Shown here piece after piece: positions 52-54,043 of a stretch of 64,000 bases of DNA. The position numbers and the translations under genes were made by a program. The stretch's first letter is position 1. Each line of letters starts with the position of its first letter. The stretch comes from Haladaptatus cibarius D43. Lineage in GTDB: Archaea > Halobacteriota > Halobacteria > Halobacteriales > Haladaptataceae. Below the pieces are notes generated by a model. It did not search any database and was not told the DNA's origin. It saw only the letters and a list, made by a program, of their open reading frames with translations. Where the stretch lies: NCBI RefSeq assembly GCF_000710615.1, contig NZ_JDTH01000002.1, forward strand, positions 674,082-738,081, read 5' to 3'.

Positions 52-1002
52 ATGAGTGTCCCAGACAATAGTGCAACCTCACCGTTCATGTGCGGTGTGG
101 AGGTGCCGATAACGTTTCACTACGATTGGGCGAACGAAGAAGCGCTGAGTGCGTTCATCATTCAACAGATGATAGAGGAAACGGGCGTTGATTCTTCCGA
201 CGTACCCGAATCCCTGTATCAGTGCATCGACCCGGATGCACTGGAGGACTTGTTTCAGCCGCTTCAGGATGGGACACCTCGAACGAGTGGAGCGGTCACG
301 TTCAACCTCGCCGGTCACTATGTTACCGCCAACAGCGACGGGACTATCGAAATCGAATCGGAACTCGGTCGGCTGAAACGAACCGGTGGGAACCTGCTAC
401 TTACCGGTGACGTTCCAGCAGACGTGTTCGAGCAACTAAGCGCACAGTTCTTAGGCGACGTAACCTACGACAGAACGCATCTTTTCGCCCTCTACGGTCG
501 GGATGCGGATGTCGCTCGCACACTGCTCACACGAGCGAACGCGAACCCCGACCACGCGCACGCACTCTCGTACGAAGCGGCAGTGAGGTCTACCACACAA
601 GCGCAAACGAACGAACACTCGAATCAGCTCCGCGTCACGCCGGTAGTGGGGAGCATTGACGATCTCGAAACAACAATCAGAGAGGAAATATTCGAGCGAC
701 AGCGCCAGCAGATGGGATTCGACCCGGGGGAGCTACGGTTTTGCTTTGACTCGCTCCAGTTGCTTTGCAGTGAGGAAGACACGCAGACCGTCAACAGTTT
801 CTTGCGAACGATTGCGGAAACTATAGAGGAAGTTTCCGGGTTGGGGCAGTATATTTTCCCGGGTGCATACGAATCATCTCCCGTCCAAGCCGTCAAATCG
901 CTGTTCGACGTAACTGTCGAACTAAAAATCGGCGAACAAGGGCCGGAGCAACGATGGCATTTACACGATACCGATTACACGACGACATGGTTCCCAATAT
1001 AA
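52..1002 (+). CDS. HalOD1-DUF7504 fusion signalling protein
   Basis: Cytosolic haloarchaeal signal-transduction protein of 316 residues. Residues ~20-101 fit the HalOD1 output domain: a helix after VPITFHYDWA, the IDPDALEDLF motif, then a strand pair ending SDGTIEIE. Residues ~112-300 fit DUF7504, a RecA-like family that lacks a clear Walker A here: GNLLLTGDVP, an RSTTQAQ element, RFCFDSLQLL and SLFDVTVEL. Fusing the two families is sensible, because they usually occur as neighbours. The gene lies 62 nt upstream of a CHAT-protease gene on the same strand, followed by a DUF7503-like microprotein gene on the other strand. The ligand and output are unknown. Domain calls are from remembered motifs, not a search. 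Confidence 0.75.
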   Translation: MSVPDNSATSPFMCGVEVPITFHYDWANEEALSAFIIQQMIEETGVDSSDVPESLYQCIDPDALEDLFQPLQDGTPRTSGAVTFNLAGHYVTANSDGTIEIESELGRLKRTGGNLLLTGDVPADVFEQLSAQFLGDVTYDRTHLFALYGRDADVARTLLTRANANPDHAHALSYEAAVRSTTQAQTNEHSNQLRVTPVVGSIDDLETTIREEIFERQRQQMGFDPGELRFCFDSLQLLCSEEDTQTVNSFLRTIAETIEEVSGLGQYIFPGAYESSPVQAVKSLFDVTVELKIGEQGPEQRWHLHDTDYTTTWFPI

Positions 1003-1064
1003 TGCTAGAAACTGACATTTATTTCCACTACTAGAGTAACTGCGCAAGCGATACAACGAGCCAC

Positions 1065-3140
1065 ATGAAACCGGTATTTCGCCCAAACACAGACCCTCCC
1101 GGGATAACGATTATCGACCCCATTCAGCGGCGGCAGTTCCCTATTCGGACATCGGATTCCGTTCATCCAGTCGCAACGGAAACCGATCAGTTTTGCTTCC
1201 CTGTTGACAGTGCAGCAGAAATCGTAACGAACAAGCTTGTTTTGCCACATATCGTTATCGCTCACATCCGTACCGTCGATGGAGACGTTGTAACAAAAGC
1301 TGAAGATTTTTCATACGAACAGCTTCCGGAGGGGGAGTATCTGATAGAATTGAACGCGCCAATTCGGATATACTTGCGCGTTTCTGGCGAAGTAACGATC
1401 GCCTCGTCTTCGGACAGGATGGAATTTGATTTCGGTACGGAAATACGCGTTCGAATCGGGGCGCAGTCGTATCACGAACTGCCCGGAACGACGGTAACAA
1501 CGACCACCAACCCTCGGGATGTAATGTCTGCTCTTTCTACCCTCGGTTCGGCGCTAAAAACGTCAAGTTGCGAGCGCTCTTTGCCTTCGCTCAGAGGACA
1601 TCCGCCCGAAATCGAACTCGGGAGCCAGCTTGATATCCCTGATGAAATTTCGGCACCGGAAACGGGAGTTACAATCGAGGTCCCACCGGAACTCTCCATG
1701 ATTTATCCGATAAGTACCCTCGCTTATTATCTGGGTGCCAACGTCGTTCCGGGTGATGAGCCGAAACTCGTTACGGATATGGGATTCGTTCATCCCCTCG
1801 ACCACCCACGGAGAGGATTCGACGGTGAAGTCGAACGGATACTCAAACAGGTGTTATTTTTCGACTGTGTGACACGAACCGAAGGATTTTATCAAATTCC
1901 ACTCCACGAGCGACAGACGATCGAACCACGCGTCGATTTGGCGTTCGATGAACTGTACGAGCGAACGCTCTCGGAGCAGATAGAGGCCTATCTTGACGTT
2001 TCGTTCGATGTTATACGAGACCAAGTCCCGAAATGGTTGTTGTCTACGACTGTTACCGAAGACGTAGCAAACATTGAGGTAGTCCCGTATCTCGTAAATA
2101 ATCTTTCCATTATTTCTACGACAGATACAGAACACCGCCGTAGGCGGGCACCGAGAACGCCGAAACCCGTCAACAGCTTTTTCCGGGGAGTCGGAACACA
2201 TCCGAATAACAAACGACGGCACGAAGGGCAACCGTACGTTACACCCAATCGAACGAACGCTTTAGAACGAGCGTGGCTCGGCAACGGAATGCCAATTAGT
2301 GCGAACAAAATCATAAAAAAGTCATTTGAAAATAAGTTCGAGCGGGCATCCTCGACCGACGGAATTGATATAACAGTTATCTGTAATGAACCGGAGATGA
2401 GTCCGGAGTACGATGCCGGAGAGAACCTCTACGGAAAGCGGGACGAACTCGAATTCGACATCGACGTTCATCGAAATCTCTCCGTCAGTGAGTTGGAATC
2501 GGTGTTTACCTCACCGACGGATTTCGTTCACTATATTGGTCATATTAAAGATAAGAGTTTCATCTGTCGTGACGGTGGACTTGACGTGAGGTCGGTCGAT
2601 ACCGTCGCAATCGATACGTTCTTACTGAACGGCTGTCGGTCGTATGAACAAGGAATCGAACTCATCAACTCCGGAAGTATCGGCGGAATCGTCACATACA
2701 GCGAAATCGCGAACAAAAGTGCCATCAGGCTTGGGCGGACTATTGCTCAACTTTTAAATCGTGGATTTTCCCTTCGCTCTGCCCTCTCCGTCGCTCGGAA
2801 CCAACAAATAGTCGGAAACCAGTACATCGTCGTCGGAGATGGCAGTACCGAAATCGCTCAGAGCGAAAGCGGAACCCCATTCCTCTGTCATCTCGACACC
2901 GATGACGATGGGATGTACGAACTACGAATAACAACGTATCCAACGGTGGAGTCTGGGATGGGTGCGCTCTTTACCCCGTTTATCAATGACATCGGATCGT
3001 ATTTCTTGAGTGGAGGGGAGTTGGAAAAATTCGTCGTAGATAAAGACACCTTAATCCAATTTCTTCGTCTAGAACAGATCCCTCTCATCATTGATGGCGA
3101 CCTCAAATGGTCAACAGAAATAGATTTGAATGCGCTATAA
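1065..3140 (+). CDS. CHAT-domain (caspase-like) protease, haloarchaeal type
   Basis: Large 691-residue protein. The C-terminal third looks like a CHAT/caspase-fold peptidase: the FVHYIGHIKD segment (catalytic His, ~residue 490) is followed ~30 residues later by FLLNGCRSYEQG (catalytic Cys, ~523), then GGIVTYSEI and a helix ending SLRSALSVARN, as in CHAT proteins. The N-terminal ~450 residues are a beta-rich region with no family I recognise; it probably senses or binds a partner. The start ATG at 1065 gives a full-length product. The gene follows the HalOD1-DUF7504 gene and is probably co-expressed with it. The substrate is unknown; regulated proteolysis is inferred from the family. Confidence 0.75.
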   Translation: MKPVFRPNTDPPGITIIDPIQRRQFPIRTSDSVHPVATETDQFCFPVDSAAEIVTNKLVLPHIVIAHIRTVDGDVVTKAEDFSYEQLPEGEYLIELNAPIRIYLRVSGEVTIASSSDRMEFDFGTEIRVRIGAQSYHELPGTTVTTTTNPRDVMSALSTLGSALKTSSCERSLPSLRGHPPEIELGSQLDIPDEISAPETGVTIEVPPELSMIYPISTLAYYLGANVVPGDEPKLVTDMGFVHPLDHPRRGFDGEVERILKQVLFFDCVTRTEGFYQIPLHERQTIEPRVDLAFDELYERTLSEQIEAYLDVSFDVIRDQVPKWLLSTTVTEDVANIEVVPYLVNNLSIISTTDTEHRRRRAPRTPKPVNSFFRGVGTHPNNKRRHEGQPYVTPNRTNALERAWLGNGMPISANKIIKKSFENKFERASSTDGIDITVICNEPEMSPEYDAGENLYGKRDELEFDIDVHRNLSVSELESVFTSPTDFVHYIGHIKDKSFICRDGGLDVRSVDTVAIDTFLLNGCRSYEQGIELINSGSIGGIVTYSEIANKSAIRLGRTIAQLLNRGFSLRSALSVARNQQIVGNQYIVVGDGSTEIAQSESGTPFLCHLDTDDDGMYELRITTYPTVESGMGALFTPFINDIGSYFLSGGELEKFVVDKDTLIQFLRLEQIPLIIDGDLKWSTEIDLNAL

Positions 3141-3148
3141 ACCGGGGG

Positions 3149-3313
3149 TTACCGAATCGTTCCACCAGCCGCAGCAGCTGCATTGCCCGTCTGGGTAAGC
3201 AGGAGGCAGATGGTGAAAAGGACGCCGGTCATTCGTGGGTTCTCTGCGATGTATGCCAGTAGCGTGTCGTTAGTTTCGGTCATCGCATTCGTTACCTGGA
3301 AGGGGTTGATCAT
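3149..3313 (-). CDS. DUF7503-like 54-residue membrane microprotein
   Basis: Short gene encoding MINPFQVTNAMTETNDTLL... with the core YIAENPRMTGVLFTICLLL followed by an Ala-rich tail (TQTGNAAAAAGG). The N-terminus is soluble, then one hydrophobic segment precedes a GNAAAA motif that resembles a signal-peptidase-type site. This layout matches the tiny DUF7503 proteins I recall beside DUF7504 genes in haloarchaea. It faces the CHAT gene tail to tail with only 8 nt between stops. An AT-rich TATA-like stretch (AATTTATTTC, ~3340) lies upstream. Function unknown; an accessory of the HalOD1/DUF7504/CHAT cluster is inferred from position. Confidence 0.7.
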   Translation of the reverse strand: MINPFQVTNAMTETNDTLLAYIAENPRMTGVLFTICLLLTQTGNAAAAAGGTIR

Positions 3314-46390: not shown

Positions 46391-47032
46391 CTACAGAACA
46401 TCAAGAGTTAACAACTCGATTCCTCCACGTTTACCATCAGTGATTTGTACTTCCCTTCTGAGTTCTCCTCCTTCATGCCCTTGTTTTTCGTCTATCTCTA
46501 CTGGGAAATAAAAATCATATGTTTCTACATTTTCGCACACTAATTTATTCCTGTTTTCATGTTCTGATTCAGCAGGAGCAAATGTTGGTTTTGCCTTAAG
46601 CGGCCCTCTAGCATCAATCACAAGCTCATATTCTTTGACTTTCTTATCAACATATGCATGGATCATCGCACATGGCTTTGCACTTCCATTTTTTGCCTCT
46701 CTTATACGGACAAGTTCGCGATGTTTCAACCGCCTATCAACTGCTTCCGGTTCAATGGGGGTCCATGTGAGAAATATATGGAACGGCTTATTTTTCAGGT
46801 AAAAATATACTCCGGGTATTATCAAGCTTAGAAGGGCAAAAGAAACCATAATAAGGTATATGGCACTGGAATAGCGGATTGACTTTGAGAAATTATTGAC
46901 AACAACAGAGATGATCCAAAATACCGTTGAGACTATAGGGGATATCTTGAACAATAGCGTACTAGTATACGCTTTTAAAAAGATGTACAGCTTTTTAGGG
47001 AGATACTCACCCCATTTAGAACCATCTTGCAT
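46391..47032 (-). CDS. Two-helix membrane protein, candidate defence operon
   Basis: 213 residues, AT-rich. Two N-terminal helices (LFKISPIVSTVFWIISVVV; AIYLIMVSFALLSLIIPGVYF) and a soluble C-terminal beta domain (RELVRIREAKNGSAKPCAMI, KEYELVIDARGPLKAKP). No family recognised. 1 nt after the 212-residue gene. Last of a three-gene operon whose first gene is the 345-residue protein; a membrane effector role is possible. Confidence 0.6.
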   Translation of the reverse strand: MQDGSKWGEYLPKKLYIFLKAYTSTLLFKISPIVSTVFWIISVVVNNFSKSIRYSSAIYLIMVSFALLSLIIPGVYFYLKNKPFHIFLTWTPIEPEAVDRRLKHRELVRIREAKNGSAKPCAMIHAYVDKKVKEYELVIDARGPLKAKPTFAPAESEHENRNKLVCENVETYDFYFPVEIDEKQGHEGGELRREVQITDGKRGGIELLTLDVL

Positions 47033-47033
47033 A

Positions 47034-47672
47034 CTATCTGCTAGATATTACCGTTGATTCGAATATCTGGAGGATATATTCTCGTGCTTCATCCGCATCA
47101 GACTCGATAAGTAACCGGTCGTCTTGGTATTCAACTTGGATTGTTTCTCCAGTATCGCGCTCAAATTCCAGGTATGCACTCTTAATTGGGTTTCTTTCTT
47201 TCATTTCCTCCCAGGCAGAGTTCATTTCTCCTGCTTGTTTCACAGAACCATGGGATGTGAACAATTGTAGATTGAGAATCTCCTCCGCTTGTTCTATGAA
47301 TTCCCATGCTTTGCGCTGGTTCGGAACAAAGTCCTCTTTTATCTCAAAACCACTGTTTATTGCCTCATCAAGTGCAGTAAGTATTCTCTTGGGGCGAGGA
47401 CGGTCATTCTCTGTTTGGAGAATAACTAGACCTGAACCACACCTGATCTGGAAAGATCCTTCTGCTGCTTCAGAGCTTCCGAAGCGAGGATTCGACTCAT
47501 ATTGATATGACCCATGAATTATTTTCTGATTGGGGAAGGGATACAAACTGAGGTCAGAGAATCTCTGTGGTTCAGTAGTGAAGTCAAATGTAATCTCGAT
47601 TTCTTCAGATTGCTCTAACGATGGGCTGTCCACATTTTGGATGGATGCCTCGCGGACGCTTTCCACCGTCAT
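47034..47672 (-). CDS. Unknown soluble protein, candidate defence operon
   Basis: 212 residues, no membrane helix. Alpha-beta pattern: IEITFDFTTEPQRFSDLSLY, SFQIRCGSGLVILQTENDRP, KRILTALDEAINSGFEI, then YLEFERDTGETIQVEYQDD. The strand followed by a 'helix of regularly spaced acidic residues' echoes the middle of the 345- and 318-residue proteins (FVQGAQGKVEDTEKAIN). No family recognised. 57 nt downstream of the 345-residue gene. Confidence 0.6.
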   Translation of the reverse strand: MTVESVREASIQNVDSPSLEQSEEIEITFDFTTEPQRFSDLSLYPFPNQKIIHGSYQYESNPRFGSSEAAEGSFQIRCGSGLVILQTENDRPRPKRILTALDEAINSGFEIKEDFVPNQRKAWEFIEQAEEILNLQLFTSHGSVKQAGEMNSAWEEMKERNPIKSAYLEFERDTGETIQVEYQDDRLLIESDADEAREYILQIFESTVISSR

Positions 47673-47729
47673 ATTATCTACTTGGAGTTACGTTTTGGCT
47701 CATCATACGTTTTTTTGTTTATCACTCTC

Positions 47730-48767
47730 TTATCCGATGTGGTCAAAGTCGGATGGGTCTGCTCTCTCACCGCGTTTATCTTCGAAGTCCTCGATCAGAC
47801 TGTCTAAGTCAAAGTTGAGCTCAACATTATTATCTGCGGCCGTTCCAGCAAGATCGTCAAAGAAGGTGAACGGGGGATATCTTTCTTTGTCACCCATCGC
47901 TTTCCATTCTCCGTATAAATTTACAAATTCCGACACGAAGAATATAGCGATTAAGGCACGCTTGAGATGTGTTTCCGCACTCTCTATTGAGCCAGCTACC
48001 TTGACGTGAATCCGTCCCTCCTGTTGGATTTCGGCATTAACCGTATAACTATTCACTTTAAACATCCCCTCAATCATCTGGAAGTCCATCTCTTGGAGGA
48101 GTGCGAGAATGATCGGGAGAGATTCCCCAATATTTCTGGAATCTTCTACCCGACCAGTGTGTCCATATTGGTCCAAATCTCCAGAGACTTCTGATGATTT
48201 CAACTTGAGCGGAGTGATTGGTCCGGGAATACCTTCATCCGCATAGCCATAGCGATATAAGAACCACAGTAAGAAATCTGGATCAAATCCAAGATCATCT
48301 ACAGTAACGTCTTCTCCTAGCTCAGCATTAATCGCTTTTTCTGTATCCTCAACTTTCCCTTGTGCTCCCTGCACAAACATGTAGTTCGGATAATCCCAAT
48401 ATACATACGCCTCATTTGTTTGCCGGAGCCAGGCTCTAGTTTGCTGACCGTCGTTATCGACAAATTCGAGATTTTTTGTTCCCCTGAAGTCTTCCCACGT
48501 ATATTTCTTGTCTACGATCCTACTTGCTACTTCAGCTAGATCTCCCTCCAAGAGGTATTCTTGACCATTCGCTAGTCGTGCTAATTCGATATCAGAGAAT
48601 CCCTCGCTTTCGCTATTGGGTTTCCCTCTCTTGAACTCAGAGAGGCCGGTGAGCAAATCATCCCGTATCTCATCTGGATCATCTGCTTGAACAGTCGTTG
48701 CACGGATGCCATTAAAGATAAGTTGGCCATTGTAGTCGAAATCCGGGCGTTGTTCCTGTTTCGACAT
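47730..48767 (-). CDS. Unknown family, paralogue A (345 residues)
   Basis: Acidic soluble protein. It shares with the 318-residue product of 49811-50767: a Y-x-G-x-L-x-F-N start, a LGFDPDFLLWFLY motif (~residue 190), a GMFKVNSYTVNAEIQQEGRIHVKV strand run (split: GMFKVNSYTVNAE, EGRIHVKV) and FFVSEFVNLYGEWKAM then ERYPPFTFF near the end. I know no described family with this set. It heads an operon with the 212- and 213-residue proteins. AT-rich. Two diverged paralogues in one island suggest a system with paired subunits. Confidence 0.65.
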   Translation of the reverse strand: MSKQEQRPDFDYNGQLIFNGIRATTVQADDPDEIRDDLLTGLSEFKRGKPNSESEGFSDIELARLANGQEYLLEGDLAEVASRIVDKKYTWEDFRGTKNLEFVDNDGQQTRAWLRQTNEAYVYWDYPNYMFVQGAQGKVEDTEKAINAELGEDVTVDDLGFDPDFLLWFLYRYGYADEGIPGPITPLKLKSSEVSGDLDQYGHTGRVEDSRNIGESLPIILALLQEMDFQMIEGMFKVNSYTVNAEIQQEGRIHVKVAGSIESAETHLKRALIAIFFVSEFVNLYGEWKAMGDKERYPPFTFFDDLAGTAADNNVELNFDLDSLIEDFEDKRGERADPSDFDHIG

Positions 48768-48922
48768 TTGTTGTTACGGGAATATAGTAGACAGAAAACA
48801 TAAACTTTGTTGTATCTCTTTTCCTATTCGCTATTTTAGCTATTGGTTGTGTGGTCTGTTTCTTATGGCCATATAAATACAAAAGCGAAAAAATCTTATA
48901 ACGATCTCTCTTATCACCTAAC

Positions 48923-49390
48923 ATGAACTTCTCAGATATATTTGTGGAATTAGTTCCAAATATTTGGTCAAATATAAATAGGCGAAACCTGATTAAGACT
49001 GAATACCGTCGAATTAGAGAATGTATTAGGAATAAAGAGCCATTTGAATCATCTTTTAAAAAGACATCATGTTTGGGAGATTTTATTGAGGTGAGGCATT
49101 TCAAAATATTATCGATGATTGATAAATATGGTCATAAAAATAAGAAAGGATTACACAAGATTACGATGAAAGAGCATAGGTTAATTCGAAAAATAGACAA
49201 ACAAATTTTCTATATTCGTTTAAAGAATACACTATCTTATGTATTCTGGGTAATTACACTTTGTTTGATTATTGGGTTAATTGTGGGTATAGCTACAACA
49301 ATAGCCGAATCAGTAAAAATGATTGTAAATAACGAATTTCAATCATCCAATTCACTTTGGATGTTTTTCATCATCCGATACACCTCATGA
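48923..49390 (+). CDS. AT-rich protein with C-terminal membrane helix
   Basis: 155 residues, Lys/Ile-rich and very unlike haloarchaeal codon use. Basic helical N-terminus (NRRNLIKTEYRRIRECIRNK), then one long hydrophobic stretch (YVFWVITLCLIIGLIVGIA). TATA-like CTTATAAC just upstream of the ATG suggests a leaderless transcript. Its 3' end overlaps the convergent AlbA_2 gene by 52 nt. No family recognised; foreign origin likely. Confidence 0.5.
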   Translation: MNFSDIFVELVPNIWSNINRRNLIKTEYRRIRECIRNKEPFESSFKKTSCLGDFIEVRHFKILSMIDKYGHKNKKGLHKITMKEHRLIRKIDKQIFYIRLKNTLSYVFWVITLCLIIGLIVGIATTIAESVKMIVNNEFQSSNSLWMFFIIRYTS

Positions 49391-49842
49391 GGGGGAAGAA
49401 GTAAATCCTCATCTTGATGTCGAAGATAAAATCGGCCGTCTGCTGTAAGCGGGTATTTTTTGAATTTATCAATTATTATTATAATTATTCTTTTTCCGTC
49501 TATTTCAACCTCAGAAATCACAAATTTGGTATCCCATCTTCTCTCTAGATCACGAATGAGTATTTCACGTACTGTTTCTGTCGCTGTATTTTGAACACCT
49601 TTCTTTTCTCCCTCCTTATCCACTCCCAGGAGGATTTGACCTCCACCGTTATTAGCAAGGCTGCATGCAGTGATTGCAAGACATCCGTCATTCTCACCAG
49701 AGATGTCTTCGTAAAACTCGGTTTTGTCTCCTCGTCCATTGTCAATGGCATATTCAATATCAGAAACTTCAACTGAAGCTTCTTCTTGTTCATAAATCTC
49801 CACGGTTAAATCACTCTCCTCGTTTTTGTTTGTATTCTTCAA
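49339..49842 (-). CDS. AlbA_2 / Schlafen-type domain protein (short)
   Basis: 167 residues. The AlbA_2 (Schlafen AlbA-like) pattern is clear: DKTEFYEDISGENDGCLAI, TACSLANNGGGQILLGVDKE, EGEKKGVQNTATETVREIL, VEIDGKRIIIIIIDKFKKYP and a closing GRFYLRHQDEDLLLP. Such domains bind nucleic acid and occur in anti-viral proteins. It overlaps the end of the 318-residue gene by 32 nt, so it is co-translated with it. Confidence 0.75.
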   Translation of the reverse strand: MKNTNKNEESDLTVEIYEQEEASVEVSDIEYAIDNGRGDKTEFYEDISGENDGCLAITACSLANNGGGQILLGVDKEGEKKGVQNTATETVREILIRDLERRWDTKFVISEVEIDGKRIIIIIIDKFKKYPLTADGRFYLRHQDEDLLLPPHEVYRMMKNIQSELDD

Positions 49843-50767
49843 GGACTGATTCTACTGAAAATTCTAGATTGAACCCGGCCTCTCCTAAACCTTCATAAAT
49901 TTGATTAAAGAATGCTGTAGGAGGATAACGTTCAGAATTTGGTAGGGATTTCCAACTGTCGTATAAATTACAAAATTCATGTAAAAAGGATACGGAGGTA
50001 ACAATCCTCCCCTCCGATTCAAGCTTGCTAATATCTTTATCTGATTTTATATGTATTCTGCCTTCAGATCGAATATCGACACTCATTTGAATACCTCCAA
50101 CTTCGAAAATCCCACCAACCATTGTAATTTTTTTACCACGAAGTAATCCGGTTAAAACGGGTGCAGATCTTGCAACATTATCTGAGCCAGATACTTGGTT
50201 GACACGGCCGACTGCATCTTGCTCACCAACTACTTCAGCATCAGTCAGCCGAGATATTAATAAACTACCTGATATGTCCTGTGACTGGTTATATATGAGC
50301 CATAGGAAGAAATCAGGATCAAATTCTAATTCTGTGGCAGTACTATCCAACCCATTGTCTCTAAGTTTTGTATAAAATCCATCTGTGACTCTATTCAAAT
50401 CTGATTTTGTGCCCTTGAAAAATACATATCCCTTGGAGGTGATGAAAATATCACATATTCGGTTGTTTGGTATATGAACCGTCGTTTGTTCACCATCGCT
50501 GTCAATTCCTGTTTCTTCAGTAAATTCACGAACTTTGTAACGGAACCAACGAACCTCGTCATCCATTATTCGGAGGAATTCTCTCGGAACTGGTTGGTCT
50601 ACCGTTCGTGCCGGCAGTAGTACTTCTTTTATTGAATCTTCTAACTGAAGGGGATCAGATTGCTCATTGGTCTCGTCATCAAAACATCTGCTTATATTTG
50701 AAAGTTCGAAATCCGATTCTAATTGATGAATTTGATTAAAAACAAGATAGCCACTATATTCTGACAT
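49811..50767 (-). CDS. Unknown family, paralogue B (318 residues)
   Basis: AT-rich relative of the 345-residue protein: YSGYLVFNQIHQ start, LEFDPDFFLWLIYNQ, GRVNQV...ARSAPVLTGLLRG, GGIFEVGGIQMSVDIR then EGRIHIKSD, and FLHEFCNLYDSWKSL then ERYPPTAFF. Soluble. Preceded by a winged-helix gene (79 nt) and overlapped by the AlbA_2 gene, giving the order small membrane protein, wHTH, paralogue B, AlbA_2. No known family recalled. Confidence 0.65.
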   Translation of the reverse strand: MSEYSGYLVFNQIHQLESDFELSNISRCFDDETNEQSDPLQLEDSIKEVLLPARTVDQPVPREFLRIMDDEVRWFRYKVREFTEETGIDSDGEQTTVHIPNNRICDIFITSKGYVFFKGTKSDLNRVTDGFYTKLRDNGLDSTATELEFDPDFFLWLIYNQSQDISGSLLISRLTDAEVVGEQDAVGRVNQVSGSDNVARSAPVLTGLLRGKKITMVGGIFEVGGIQMSVDIRSEGRIHIKSDKDISKLESEGRIVTSVSFLHEFCNLYDSWKSLPNSERYPPTAFFNQIYEGLGEAGFNLEFSVESVLEEYKQKRGE

Positions 50768-50845
50768 TACTACTATTATTAAATCACTTTAAGCTTATAG
50801 AGTATCAATCTATCGCATATCGGCGATATGGGTAAGGGAGTAGCG

Positions 50846-51136
50846 TTACGAATCTTCGTCGTTCTCTAACTCTTCGGCGTCGAGGTCGCCAGCGAGATAC
50901 TGCCTTCCCTTTTTTGAAAGCCGGTAAATTGCTCTCGACTCATCGTGGTACTCGACAAGGTCGTACTCCAGAAGGAGCGAAATGTGTTCTCGAACTGTTT
51001 GGCGCTTCCAGTCCGTATTCTCGGCAATTAAACCGGGCGTCAGAACAAGTTCTTGACCTGCTTCGTTCCAAAGAAGTTCAAGGATGTCCCTGTCTACCGG
51101 AGTCATCCACGAAGCGAGGTCTGTTCGTGCCAACAT
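50846..51136 (-). CDS. Winged-helix regulator A
   Basis: 96 residues from ATG 51136. RTDLASWMTPVDRDILELLW, LTPGLIAENTDWKRQTVREH, ISLLLEYDLVEYHDESRAIY, LSKKGRQYLAGDLDAEELEN: a compact wHTH with the wing at Y-H-D-E-S-R. The ATG 12 codons upstream would overlap the small membrane gene; the chosen start matches the sister at 59066. Closely related to the wHTH at 58791-59066. Its last ~20 codons are the element copied as tails elsewhere in the region. Confidence 0.8.
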   Translation of the reverse strand: MLARTDLASWMTPVDRDILELLWNEAGQELVLTPGLIAENTDWKRQTVREHISLLLEYDLVEYHDESRAIYRLSKKGRQYLAGDLDAEELENDEDS

Positions 51137-51143
51137 ACCCAAT

Positions 51144-51374
51144 CTACGAACTGCTACCGAGTATCGCTCCAAGAATCTTGAATGGCAACACCATCATCCA
51201 GATAACGAGCTTTATCAGGAACATGAGAAAGCTCACGAGTCCGCCCGACGAATCGGCAGAGCCACTGACGGTGTTCAACTCGCCGCTGATCTGCTCTTCA
51301 TCGACACTGCTCTCGTACTTGCGTTGGATTTCTCCGGCGTAGTTCGTGTTGCAGTCGAGGCGGTCGGTGGTCAT
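51144..51374 (-). CDS. Small membrane protein upstream of winged-helix A
   Basis: 76 residues: MTTDRLDCNTNYAGEIQRKY, a Ser/Glu-rich linker, then a C-terminal amphipathic/hydrophobic run (LVSFLMFLIKLVIWMMVLPF, KILGAILGSSS). It ends 7 nt before the wHTH start. The first codons lie at the very edge of the 131-bp repeat. Possible small toxin-like or sensor membrane peptide. Confidence 0.5.
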   Translation of the reverse strand: MTTDRLDCNTNYAGEIQRKYESSVDEEQISGELNTVSGSADSSGGLVSFLMFLIKLVIWMMVLPFKILGAILGSSS

Positions 51375-51501
51375 CGCTGGCACGATGGGCGTGTTCTACC
51401 TCCCATACTTTACGTCTCTGAACGTGACGGCGACGCGTCGCTCGGAGAGCAGTGGCGAACTGACGCGTGTCTGGCCGCTGCTTGTCGGTGTGACGGGTGG
51501 G
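51371..51501 (+). repeat. 131-bp direct repeat, right copy
   Basis: See 46252-46382. The right copy continues into the genuine gene end (51502-51546), so it marks the original 3' end. Confidence 0.9.
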
Positions 51502-51546
51502 TTGGGTGTCGGGTACTATCTCTACAAGCGACTGCAGAAGGCGTAA
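51371..51546 (+). pseudogene. Displaced 3' end of the broken membrane-protein gene
   Basis: Encodes GVFYLPYFTSLNVTATRRSE, LLVGVTGGLGVGYYLYKRLQ, KA and stop: the true C-terminus (helix and basic end) missing from 45945-46390. No start codon of its own. Confidence 0.75.
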
Positions 51547-51637
51547 TCGCGTTCTATTAGGGTAGAAGTAATGTTGCCATTCTCCACGCTTAGAAGACTC
51601 TTTCGTTCCTCGTCAATACCTTACTCTTATTTAGGCT

Positions 51638-52567
51638 TTACTGACTGTACCATTCGGTTGCTGTTTCTTCTCCTAACTCCGCTTTAAGCTGTTCAGCGTA
51701 CGGATATTCAATTACATTCATTGCACGAGAGCACTTCTTTGATACTGAACTGAGGTCTTCTGACCAGTCTAATTCAGTCCGCTTCCAAACATCATGAGCA
51801 ACGTTGTTTCGTATATCAACTATTTCCCATATGAGTTCTTTCTCCTCCTTCGATATCTCTCCATGAGAAAAAAGAGAATCAGCCATGTCGCGTAACGAAG
51901 TGTTCTTGGCAACTGGAGAGTATTTCCATTTTAGGATCTCGAATGCTCCTGTTTCGATGACAGCCGTGGTTGTGAGGAGTAGATTCGAAAATTGTATCTT
52001 CATCCGATGTTGTAGCTCAAAACTCCTCTCGTGACCATCAATTGCCGAGAGTTCAAATCCTGTTCGATTTGCTGTTGCTTTCCAGGAGCAAAATGTGAAG
52101 TATCTCGATGTTATTCTGTTAGCATTCTCAATCGATTCAATCTCCTCTATCAGAGTGCTTGAAAATATTTCCTCTTCTCCCATCATTTCTCTTAAAGCAC
52201 CAAGTATCTCCTCGTATTTCTTAGAGTGGCGATAGCTGCGCTCATCTGCCCGCTCTATCATCCGCATTTTCTCTTTTGTTTCATACCAAGCCTCTCTAAG
52301 TTCGGTTTGACTTGGATTATCGGGTAAATCATTCCAATCTAAAATTTGGTCATATAGTGAGAGATGATCCGTTCCTTCTGCCAAAAGCTGATCCAACTCT
52401 AGAAACTGTTCAACGAATTGTCGTGAGACCACGAGGTTATCTACAGTTATCTCGGGAGGGAAATCAAAAACTTCGAACTCTCTAAGAATATCTTCTGAAT
52501 CCTCTGTTTTGTTTTTATGTGACTCCTTCCGCTCAGATCGGAATATTTTGCGAATCCTCTCAATCAT
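51638..52567 (-). CDS. HEPN-domain protein (putative RNase)
   Basis: 309 residues, AT-rich, mostly helical. The C-terminal ~130 residues have the HEPN signature: a helix pair ending IWEIVDIRNNVAHDVW, where R-x4-H (RNNVAH) is the classical HEPN ribonuclease motif. N-terminal region is charged coiled-coil (RIRKIFRSERKESHKNK, EKMRMIERADERSYRHSKK). HEPN proteins are frequent in defence and toxin systems. It stands alone next to the island's right edge; no MNT-type antitoxin partner is visible. Confidence 0.65.
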   Translation of the reverse strand: MIERIRKIFRSERKESHKNKTEDSEDILREFEVFDFPPEITVDNLVVSRQFVEQFLELDQLLAEGTDHLSLYDQILDWNDLPDNPSQTELREAWYETKEKMRMIERADERSYRHSKKYEEILGALREMMGEEEIFSSTLIEEIESIENANRITSRYFTFCSWKATANRTGFELSAIDGHERSFELQHRMKIQFSNLLLTTTAVIETGAFEILKWKYSPVAKNTSLRDMADSLFSHGEISKEEKELIWEIVDIRNNVAHDVWKRTELDWSEDLSSVSKKCSRAMNVIEYPYAEQLKAELGEETATEWYSQ

Positions 52568-52711
52568 AGTTAATCGAATGTCAGTTAGGATTACTTCTTG
52601 CTATCGGTTGGAGACCATGTTTCGCTATGAACTCAAGAAAGCATGCTCAGTTATATCTATATAAAAATCTATCTCCGATGTAATTATCAGTGTGGATTTA
52701 AATTTGCATAC

Positions 52712-54043
52712 ATGAATCGACGTAACTACCTTGCGGTAGTCGGATCAGGAACGCTCGCCACAATCGCCGGCTGCTCCTCCGGGAAGTTAGAGAAAAAATC
52801 GGATGATTCGGACGCCGCTGAAAAGACGAGAGAGAAGAAGAACAAAGACTCATACCGAGAAATTGGAGAATCGTTCGAGACCTCCACGGATGTCAAAATT
52901 ACAGTGGACGAGATCCATCTCGCAAATTCAATTACGCAGATGGGTTCAGGAAAGCTTGAACCCGGAAACGATCGGATGTTTGTGCTCGCGCACGTGAGTG
53001 CGAAGAACAAAGATGATGAGCCTCACAAACTTCCTTCTACGTCAAGCTTCGCACTCATTACAGGCAGTAGCCAATACGAGAACTATCGCAATGCTACGTA
53101 CATGAGCGATAGTCAGGTAACGGCACCAGTCTCCGGTAATTTCTATTCGGGGCTACAGGAGGCACGACCACAGATCGCCAAAGATGGGTGGCTTCTCTTT
53201 GCAGTTCCACGAGAGACGGAACAGGTTACGATAGCGTGGAGTGGACATCTCGAACTCTCCGGGGAGGAGGCGTATTGGAAGGCGACAATCGATTCCAGCA
53301 CACTACCAAATATCTCCGTAAAGTCCATCGATGCACCCGACAGCGTTCAGATCGGTGAGCAGTTCACCGCGACGATTACCATCCATAACACGGGTGGGAG
53401 TGCGGGCACCATCTCGACCTCGTATTCTGTTGCGACTCCGAGCGATGCCGCTGAAGAGTATACTCTGAAGAAGGAGGTTCCAGCGGGTGAGACGATTACA
53501 AAAGAGATTACACTACGACCTCAAGTGCTTGGGACGGCCAGTGTGACGCTTTCTAAACCGAACAAGAACACCACGATTTCCGTCAAACCCGCACTCCGGA
53601 AAATTGGTGAATCGTTCCAATTCGAAGAAGGGCTACAGCTCTCCGTTCGTGACCTCGTTTTTTCGGATTCGTATTCGTACGAGACGTACTTCGGCAATAA
53701 GACCACCTCTGCGGACTCTGGCAAACAGTTCCTGTTTGTCGAATTCCGTGCGAAGAATTCAACTGACACAGCTCAATCTATTCCTTCAGGTAGAGATATC
53801 TCGGTGACAGTTGAGGGCACATCGTACGACCTAACAGATACTAATGCCAACGTGTACGACGGATTTGTATCGCCGGTTAGTGGGGACGAGTATCCCAGAT
53901 ATGTTGGAACGCTTGGTTCTGGTAAAACCAAAGAAGGGTGGGTAATCTACAAGATACCCAGTGACGCAGCCAAAGAAGATATTTCAGTGCATGCAAACTG
54001 GTCGGCAAGTTATGACAATGCAACAGCAGTTTACTGGGAATAA
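52712..54043 (+). CDS. Lipoprotein with two DUF4352-like domains
   Basis: 443 residues from ATG 52712. MNRRNYLAVVGSGTLATIAG then CSS is a Tat-type start with lipobox. After an acidic/lysine-rich linker come a telokin-like domain (IGESFETSTDVKITVDEIHL), a CARDB-like adhesive module (IGEQFTATITIHNTGGSAGT) and a second telokin-like domain (IGESFQFEEGLQLSVRDLVF). Extracellular, membrane-tethered; ligand unknown. Confidence 0.75.
   Translation: MNRRNYLAVVGSGTLATIAGCSSGKLEKKSDDSDAAEKTREKKNKDSYREIGESFETSTDVKITVDEIHLANSITQMGSGKLEPGNDRMFVLAHVSAKNKDDEPHKLPSTSSFALITGSSQYENYRNATYMSDSQVTAPVSGNFYSGLQEARPQIAKDGWLLFAVPRETEQVTIAWSGHLELSGEEAYWKATIDSSTLPNISVKSIDAPDSVQIGEQFTATITIHNTGGSAGTISTSYSVATPSDAAEEYTLKKEVPAGETITKEITLRPQVLGTASVTLSKPNKNTTISVKPALRKIGESFQFEEGLQLSVRDLVFSDSYSYETYFGNKTTSADSGKQFLFVEFRAKNSTDTAQSIPSGRDISVTVEGTSYDLTDTNANVYDGFVSPVSGDEYPRYVGTLGSGKTKEGWVIYKIPSDAAKEDISVHANWSASYDNATAVYWE

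Follow-up and report, generated by a model that had tools for sequence, protein, structure and literature searches.

Which of the three genes at positions 52–3313 of the window (the whole analysed stretch of 64,000 nucleotides from Haladaptatus cibarius D43) form a functional unit, and what would that unit do? From the sequence alone, an earlier note had described a HalOD1 domain fused to DUF7504 upstream of a protein with CHAT His/Cys motifs, on which a 54-residue membrane peptide converges, and had proposed them as a candidate for regulated proteolysis or an abortive system. Pfam bears out both domains of the fusion upstream of the CHAT-like gene (Table 1). Its DUF7504 part is predicted to be a KaiC/RecA-fold domain, as the AlphaFold model (pLDDT 74) has KaiC as its top Foldseek matches (E 2e-9), and no Walker A motif is visible in this domain. 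The same HalOD1-iKaiC architecture has already been described (Galperin et al., 2018; PMC5847659), and the excerpted text of that paper does not link such proteins to a CHAT gene. The convergent ORF is indeed a DUF7503 gene (PF24335; E 4e-17, 61.9 bits against a cut-off of 27), with its stop codon separated from that of the CHAT gene by 8 bp. The length of its product was probably overestimated, since the alignment with relatives begins at the ATG at 3283, which gives 44 rather than 54 residues.

Table 1. Features of the locus in window coordinates.
Feature	Position	Strand	Basis or remark
HalOD1-DUF7504 fusion	52..1002	+	Pfam; likely input/regulatory protein
HalOD1 domain of the fusion	nt ~136-357; residues 29-102	+	Pfam, E 1e-18
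DUF7504 domain of the fusion	nt ~385-924; residues 112-291	+	Pfam (PF24336), E 1e-39, 137 bits
CHAT-family (caspase-like) cysteine protease homologue, 691 aa	1065..3140	+	family-level match to PF12770
Near-invariant motif ERSLPSLRGHPP, CHAT residues 170-181	1572..1607	+	candidate tail-recognition site
Putative catalytic His493 (HYIGH) of CHAT	2541..2543	+	invariant, 176/176 haloarchaeal relatives
Putative catalytic Cys524 (LNGCRSY) of CHAT	2634..2636	+	invariant, 176/176 haloarchaeal relatives
DUF7503 microprotein, 44 aa from ATG at 3283	3149..3283	-	Pfam; ORF opens at 3313; start assigned from relatives
C-terminal tail AAAAAGGTIR of DUF7503	3152..3181	-	minority tail type, without final Gly-Pro

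Taken alone, the 691-aa protein of the window yielded no matches in Pfam, NCBIfam, PADLOC or PDB. Among 53 scanned members of its family, 13 matched PF12770 (CHAT; best E 4e-4), and in the genome scan three loci of the family lay above the Pfam CHAT cut-off, at 33, 28 and 25 bits. The HYIGH and LNGCRSY motifs line up with the CHAT dyad, which supports the earlier assignment, and the dyad is intact in all 176 haloarchaeal CHATs; the loss of catalytic His/Cys from most homologues, which the earlier note had allowed for, is not the case. The family profile, run against PDB sequences, matched no CHAT structure, and the structure model, built on a shallow alignment of 7 sequences, has a pLDDT of 50 (below 50 over the CHAT part), too poor for its fold search to be informative. 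Judged from its sequence, the protein is probably a very divergent member of the CHAT family and presumably a protease. With the CHAT proteases (PF12770, clan CD, caspase-like) it shares the His/Cys dyad motifs, at profile scores ranging from below to above the cut-off. It differs from known CHATs in its large family-specific N-terminal region with an RGHPP motif and in its partner, a tiny, convergently encoded tail protein.

The co-occurrence of the three families was surveyed in 292 haloarchaeal genomes, covering the class. CHAT is present in 271 and DUF7503 in 250 of them, and none of the listed CHAT-less haloarchaeal genomes contains DUF7503. In a sample of 60 DUF7503 loci (one per genome) the convergent partner was a CHAT gene every time, with a gap of -17 to +99 bp at 57 loci and of -17 to +1 bp at 27. 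The window genome encodes 15 DUF7504 proteins, eight CHAT paralogues and five DUF7503 proteins; each of the five DUF7503 genes is the immediate convergent neighbour of a CHAT gene. A sixth CHAT is paired with a diverged protein that Pfam does not recognise and that likewise has a Gly-Pro end. CHAT and DUF7503 co-occur far beyond chance, as a near-obligate pair. As no operon holds convergent neighbours together, their adjacency points to a functional pair, and the faithfulness of this pair makes the tail peptide of the microprotein probably a ligand or substrate of CHAT.

Upstream of CHAT the loci vary. A DUF7504 gene precedes it at just 27 of the 60 loci; elsewhere a Cdc6-like AAA ATPase, a REC-HalX response regulator, a lone HalOD1 protein or unrelated housekeeping genes are found. 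Apart from the window genome, only Haladaptatus/Halocatena loci showed the HalOD1 fusion. A fixed triad was therefore rejected: the constant unit is the pair of CHAT and microprotein. The strict co-occurrence of CHAT and DUF7503 and the intact dyad uphold the earlier idea that the two form a pair, perhaps of protease and substrate, whereas the HalOD1-DUF7504 protein is only a local add-on. Among the alternative input proteins is a Cdc6-like AAA ATPase with an HTH (L096:612-1793 and its family f4 orthologues), whose gene immediately precedes that of CHAT in several genera.

In the alignment of DUF7503 partners, the helix and its surroundings show one invariant Pro (HP[RK]) together with near-invariant G, LF, LLL, Q, G and A; about eight variable residues come next, and the very C-terminus is mostly Gly-Pro. 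Of 71 tails, 64 end in this way, using all four Gly codons, all four Pro codons and all three stop codons. That Gly-Pro is written in all codons means that selection acts on the protein. DNA downstream of the stop codon is not visibly conserved, and a DNA-level artefact as the origin of the tail is rejected by codon use and by the substitution pattern (pS/pN) described below. Behind CHATs that lack DUF7503, a convergent small ORF ending in Gly-Pro was found in 21 of 38 cases, compared with 0 of 197 control genes of the same loci. All ORFs of this analysis are computed rather than annotated, and the start codons of the leaders are uncertain. Among the 21, the L140 case (gap 258) probably reflects chance, and a further partner of 226 aa ending in SPGP (L139) lies outside the length cut of this count; behind about 17 of the 38 no tail partner was detected. 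The leaders are unrelated, comprising diverged helices (L035, L136, L137, L157), soluble leaders ending in [KE]RV[ST][ST]Y[GS]GP (L146, L167, L168, L174, L175, L183) and proteins with a DGSSSPYTGP ending (L150, L151). In the CHAT tree, such partners are found in both branches of the deepest split.

How far the tail can be separated from the helix is illustrated by one genus (g43). One of its species (L077) has an ordinary helix-type DUF7503 at the CHAT locus, while at the same locus six other species (L130–L135; both flanks match, with 72–86% DNA identity) encode a partner that is likewise convergent to CHAT but lacks a transmembrane segment. These partners are made up of a 13-residue unit, for instance YTADGNGGGISGP, repeated in tandem 4–13 times; the first repeat of L135, AAGNGSGISGP, is shaped like a normal DUF7503 tail. 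Between the copies pS amounts to 0.07–0.59, whereas pN is 0, save for 0.02 in one array at position 1 of the unit, so that each copy is under purifying selection as protein. The genus has thus lost the helix in place and keeps the tails, so that the tail and not the helix is what the partner of CHAT retains. In four g43 genomes with these repeats none occurred elsewhere in the genome; the tail as a genome-wide tag was accordingly rejected. To our knowledge, precursors with tandem tails would be without precedent in archaea.

The type of tail also follows the CHAT sequence. On the CHAT tree, tails without Gly-Pro need 4 changes, compared with 12.5 after shuffling, and positions 173 and 175 of CHAT differ between tail types. 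Residue 175, within the motif ERSxP[T/S]xRGHPP, is Ser with 18 of 23 tails lacking Gly-Pro and Thr with 100 of 105 Gly-Pro tails; a Gly-Pro tail within the clade of the other type (L020) goes along with Thr175. Across the roughly five independent changes of tail type, residue 175 was concordant in three, uninformative in two and discordant in none. With so few independent changes, the covariation is no more than suggestive of residue 175 being a tail-recognition site.

Most likely, the tail is a dedicated substrate or ligand of CHAT. The account that we consider the best, at slightly less than an even chance, is that the tail marks the partner for recognition and cleavage by its own CHAT, under the control of a locus-specific input protein. 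The core would be a two-gene haloarchaeal module in which a CHAT cysteine protease is paired with a small protein from a convergent gene; in the latter, only the short C-terminal tail, usually ...xGP, would be kept universally. Recognition might proceed via the motif around residue 175, and cleavage would follow upon a signal from the upstream protein. This input would be interchangeable, being a HalOD1-pseudoKaiC protein here and a lone DUF7504, a lone HalOD1, a Cdc6-like ATPase or a response regulator elsewhere. In most species the tail partner appears to be membrane-anchored or to carry a signal-peptide-like segment (as judged by visual inspection and simple patterns for topology and signal peptides), and cleavage would then free the tail from, or at, the membrane; in g43 the partner would be a soluble multi-copy precursor. 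The layout of K/R before the helix suggests that tails of helix forms lie outside the cell. An obvious export signal was not found in the CHAT protein, nor was a common cleavage motif found for the tails, some of which follow Asp, some Arg and most neither.

It is less probable, yet the strongest competitor, that the tail is not cut at all and acts as a bound regulator of CHAT, i.e., a pseudosubstrate inhibitor, an activator or a membrane tether, with tandem tails raising avidity or dose. The constancy of the tail alone beside freely varying leaders, the free C-terminal Gly-Pro, which suits a docking ligand, and the covariation of CHAT residues 173 and 175 with tail type would all fit this. 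An intact dyad in every haloarchaeal CHAT, however, implies that catalysis matters for something, and strictly conserved internal repeats without a free C-terminus are easier to explain if they are released.

A reading to which we give about one chance in a handful regards DUF7503 and its replacements as precursors of short archaeal peptides which the cognate CHAT matures or senses. Were this so, it would be a haloarchaeal system of peptide signalling or self-recognition, with many orthogonal pairs per genome and multi-copy precursors included. In the Rap-Phr (RRNPP) systems, a tiny precursor with a signal-like segment and a short C-terminal peptide is encoded beside its cognate protein, with many paralogous pairs per genome. 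The haloarchaeal precursors resemble this in their size, their signal-like segment and C-terminal peptide and their many paralogous pairs; in contrast, the cognate protein is a CHAT protease homologue and not a TPR protein, the genes are convergent, and some precursors are signal-less tandem repeats. Export of the variable tail and its later perception by the cognate CHAT, as in Rap-Phr, appear improbable. An A-x-A-like site precedes the tail in 127 of 128 DUF7503 partners, a count whose meaning is weakened by the Ala-rich sequence; the middle of the tail varies between constant flanks, one genome contains many paralogous pairs with differing tails, and one genus has multi-copy precursors. Against this, an export signal on every precursor is not found, as the tandem and soluble-leader forms lack one, the invariant P, G and Q of the helix go beyond the needs of a signal peptide, and a secreted peptide is not known.

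An abortive system, in which CHAT would cut the microprotein and the latter would form holes in the membrane and kill the cell, had been brought up by the earlier note and is now very improbable. CHAT proteases in Craspase and beside gasdermins do serve defence, bacterial and fungal gasdermin-protease pairs have the protease adjoining a membrane-active partner, and DUF7503 does have a hydrophobic helix. In contrast to these pairs, the haloarchaeal partner has about 44 residues, and its helix is dispensable while the tail is the conserved part: the partners of g43 and those with soluble leaders lack the helix, some having lost it and kept only the tail, which disfavours a gasdermin-like killer with a membrane-active partner in all versions. 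A defence role is also without positive support. PADLOC found no known defence protein in the window and only two stray weak matches in the CHAT family, no relatives were found in phages or viral contigs, and the pair is near-universal rather than island-like, with housekeeping-type neighbours. Finally, that the convergent ORF acts merely as RNA (antisense or terminator region) is suggested by the often touching or overlapping stop codons (the 27 loci above) and is negligible given the preservation of Gly-Pro through all codons, the near-zero pN at high pS in the repeats and the DNA beyond the stop codon that is not visibly conserved.

CHAT proteases, HalOD1-iKaiC proteins and the DUF families are already catalogued. 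The open-licence papers searched yielded no account of CHAT being paired with DUF7503, of the C-terminal tail or of its tandem forms, and nothing relevant on DUF7504 or on CHAT in archaea. One close likeness is Craspase, in which the CHAT protease TPR-CHAT/Csx29 has a dedicated substrate, Csx30 (PMC9729208, PMC11106740). Unlike Csx29, the haloarchaeal CHAT is very divergent, and neither a TPR nor a CRISPR association was seen. Haloferax volcanii exhibits a strong caspase-like activity, the gene for which was not known in the 2012 paper (PMC3615174); such activity is also reported in archaea outside this family. As H. volcanii carries DUF7503 above the cut-off, CHAT is a candidate gene for the caspase-like activity of this species and for that long reported from haloarchaea, which is a testable lead and not a result. 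A near-core haloarchaeal gene pair thereby leads to a concrete hypothesis, namely that a caspase-like protease has a peptide partner to itself, which could be tested in H. volcanii.

Outside the haloarchaea, no tail partner was found for four relatives of the CHAT family, which come from a different archaeal family of the same phylum; an older CHAT protein thus seems to have gained its tail partner in the haloarchaea. One of these four (L253; 2540-4600, minus strand) has also lost the catalytic His/Cys motifs (VQFIGRHN, CTDSS) and is apparently a pseudoenzyme. Within the haloarchaea, deep-clade CHATs at several loci (L140–L143, L145, L147, L035) are followed by a conserved same-strand gene of about 272 aa, which we take to be perhaps a TbsP-type regulator and which contains the motif IDTEKVPIDVGRPRLRL in L140–L147. 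Four genomes (G023, G043, G207, G273) exhibit large CHAT expansions with 9–16 matches (some split), tandem copies included, and many of these copies apparently lack a tail partner. Elsewhere in the window, the region 47000–53000 has a low G + C content (35–49%) and several uncharacterised ORFs and is likely of foreign origin.
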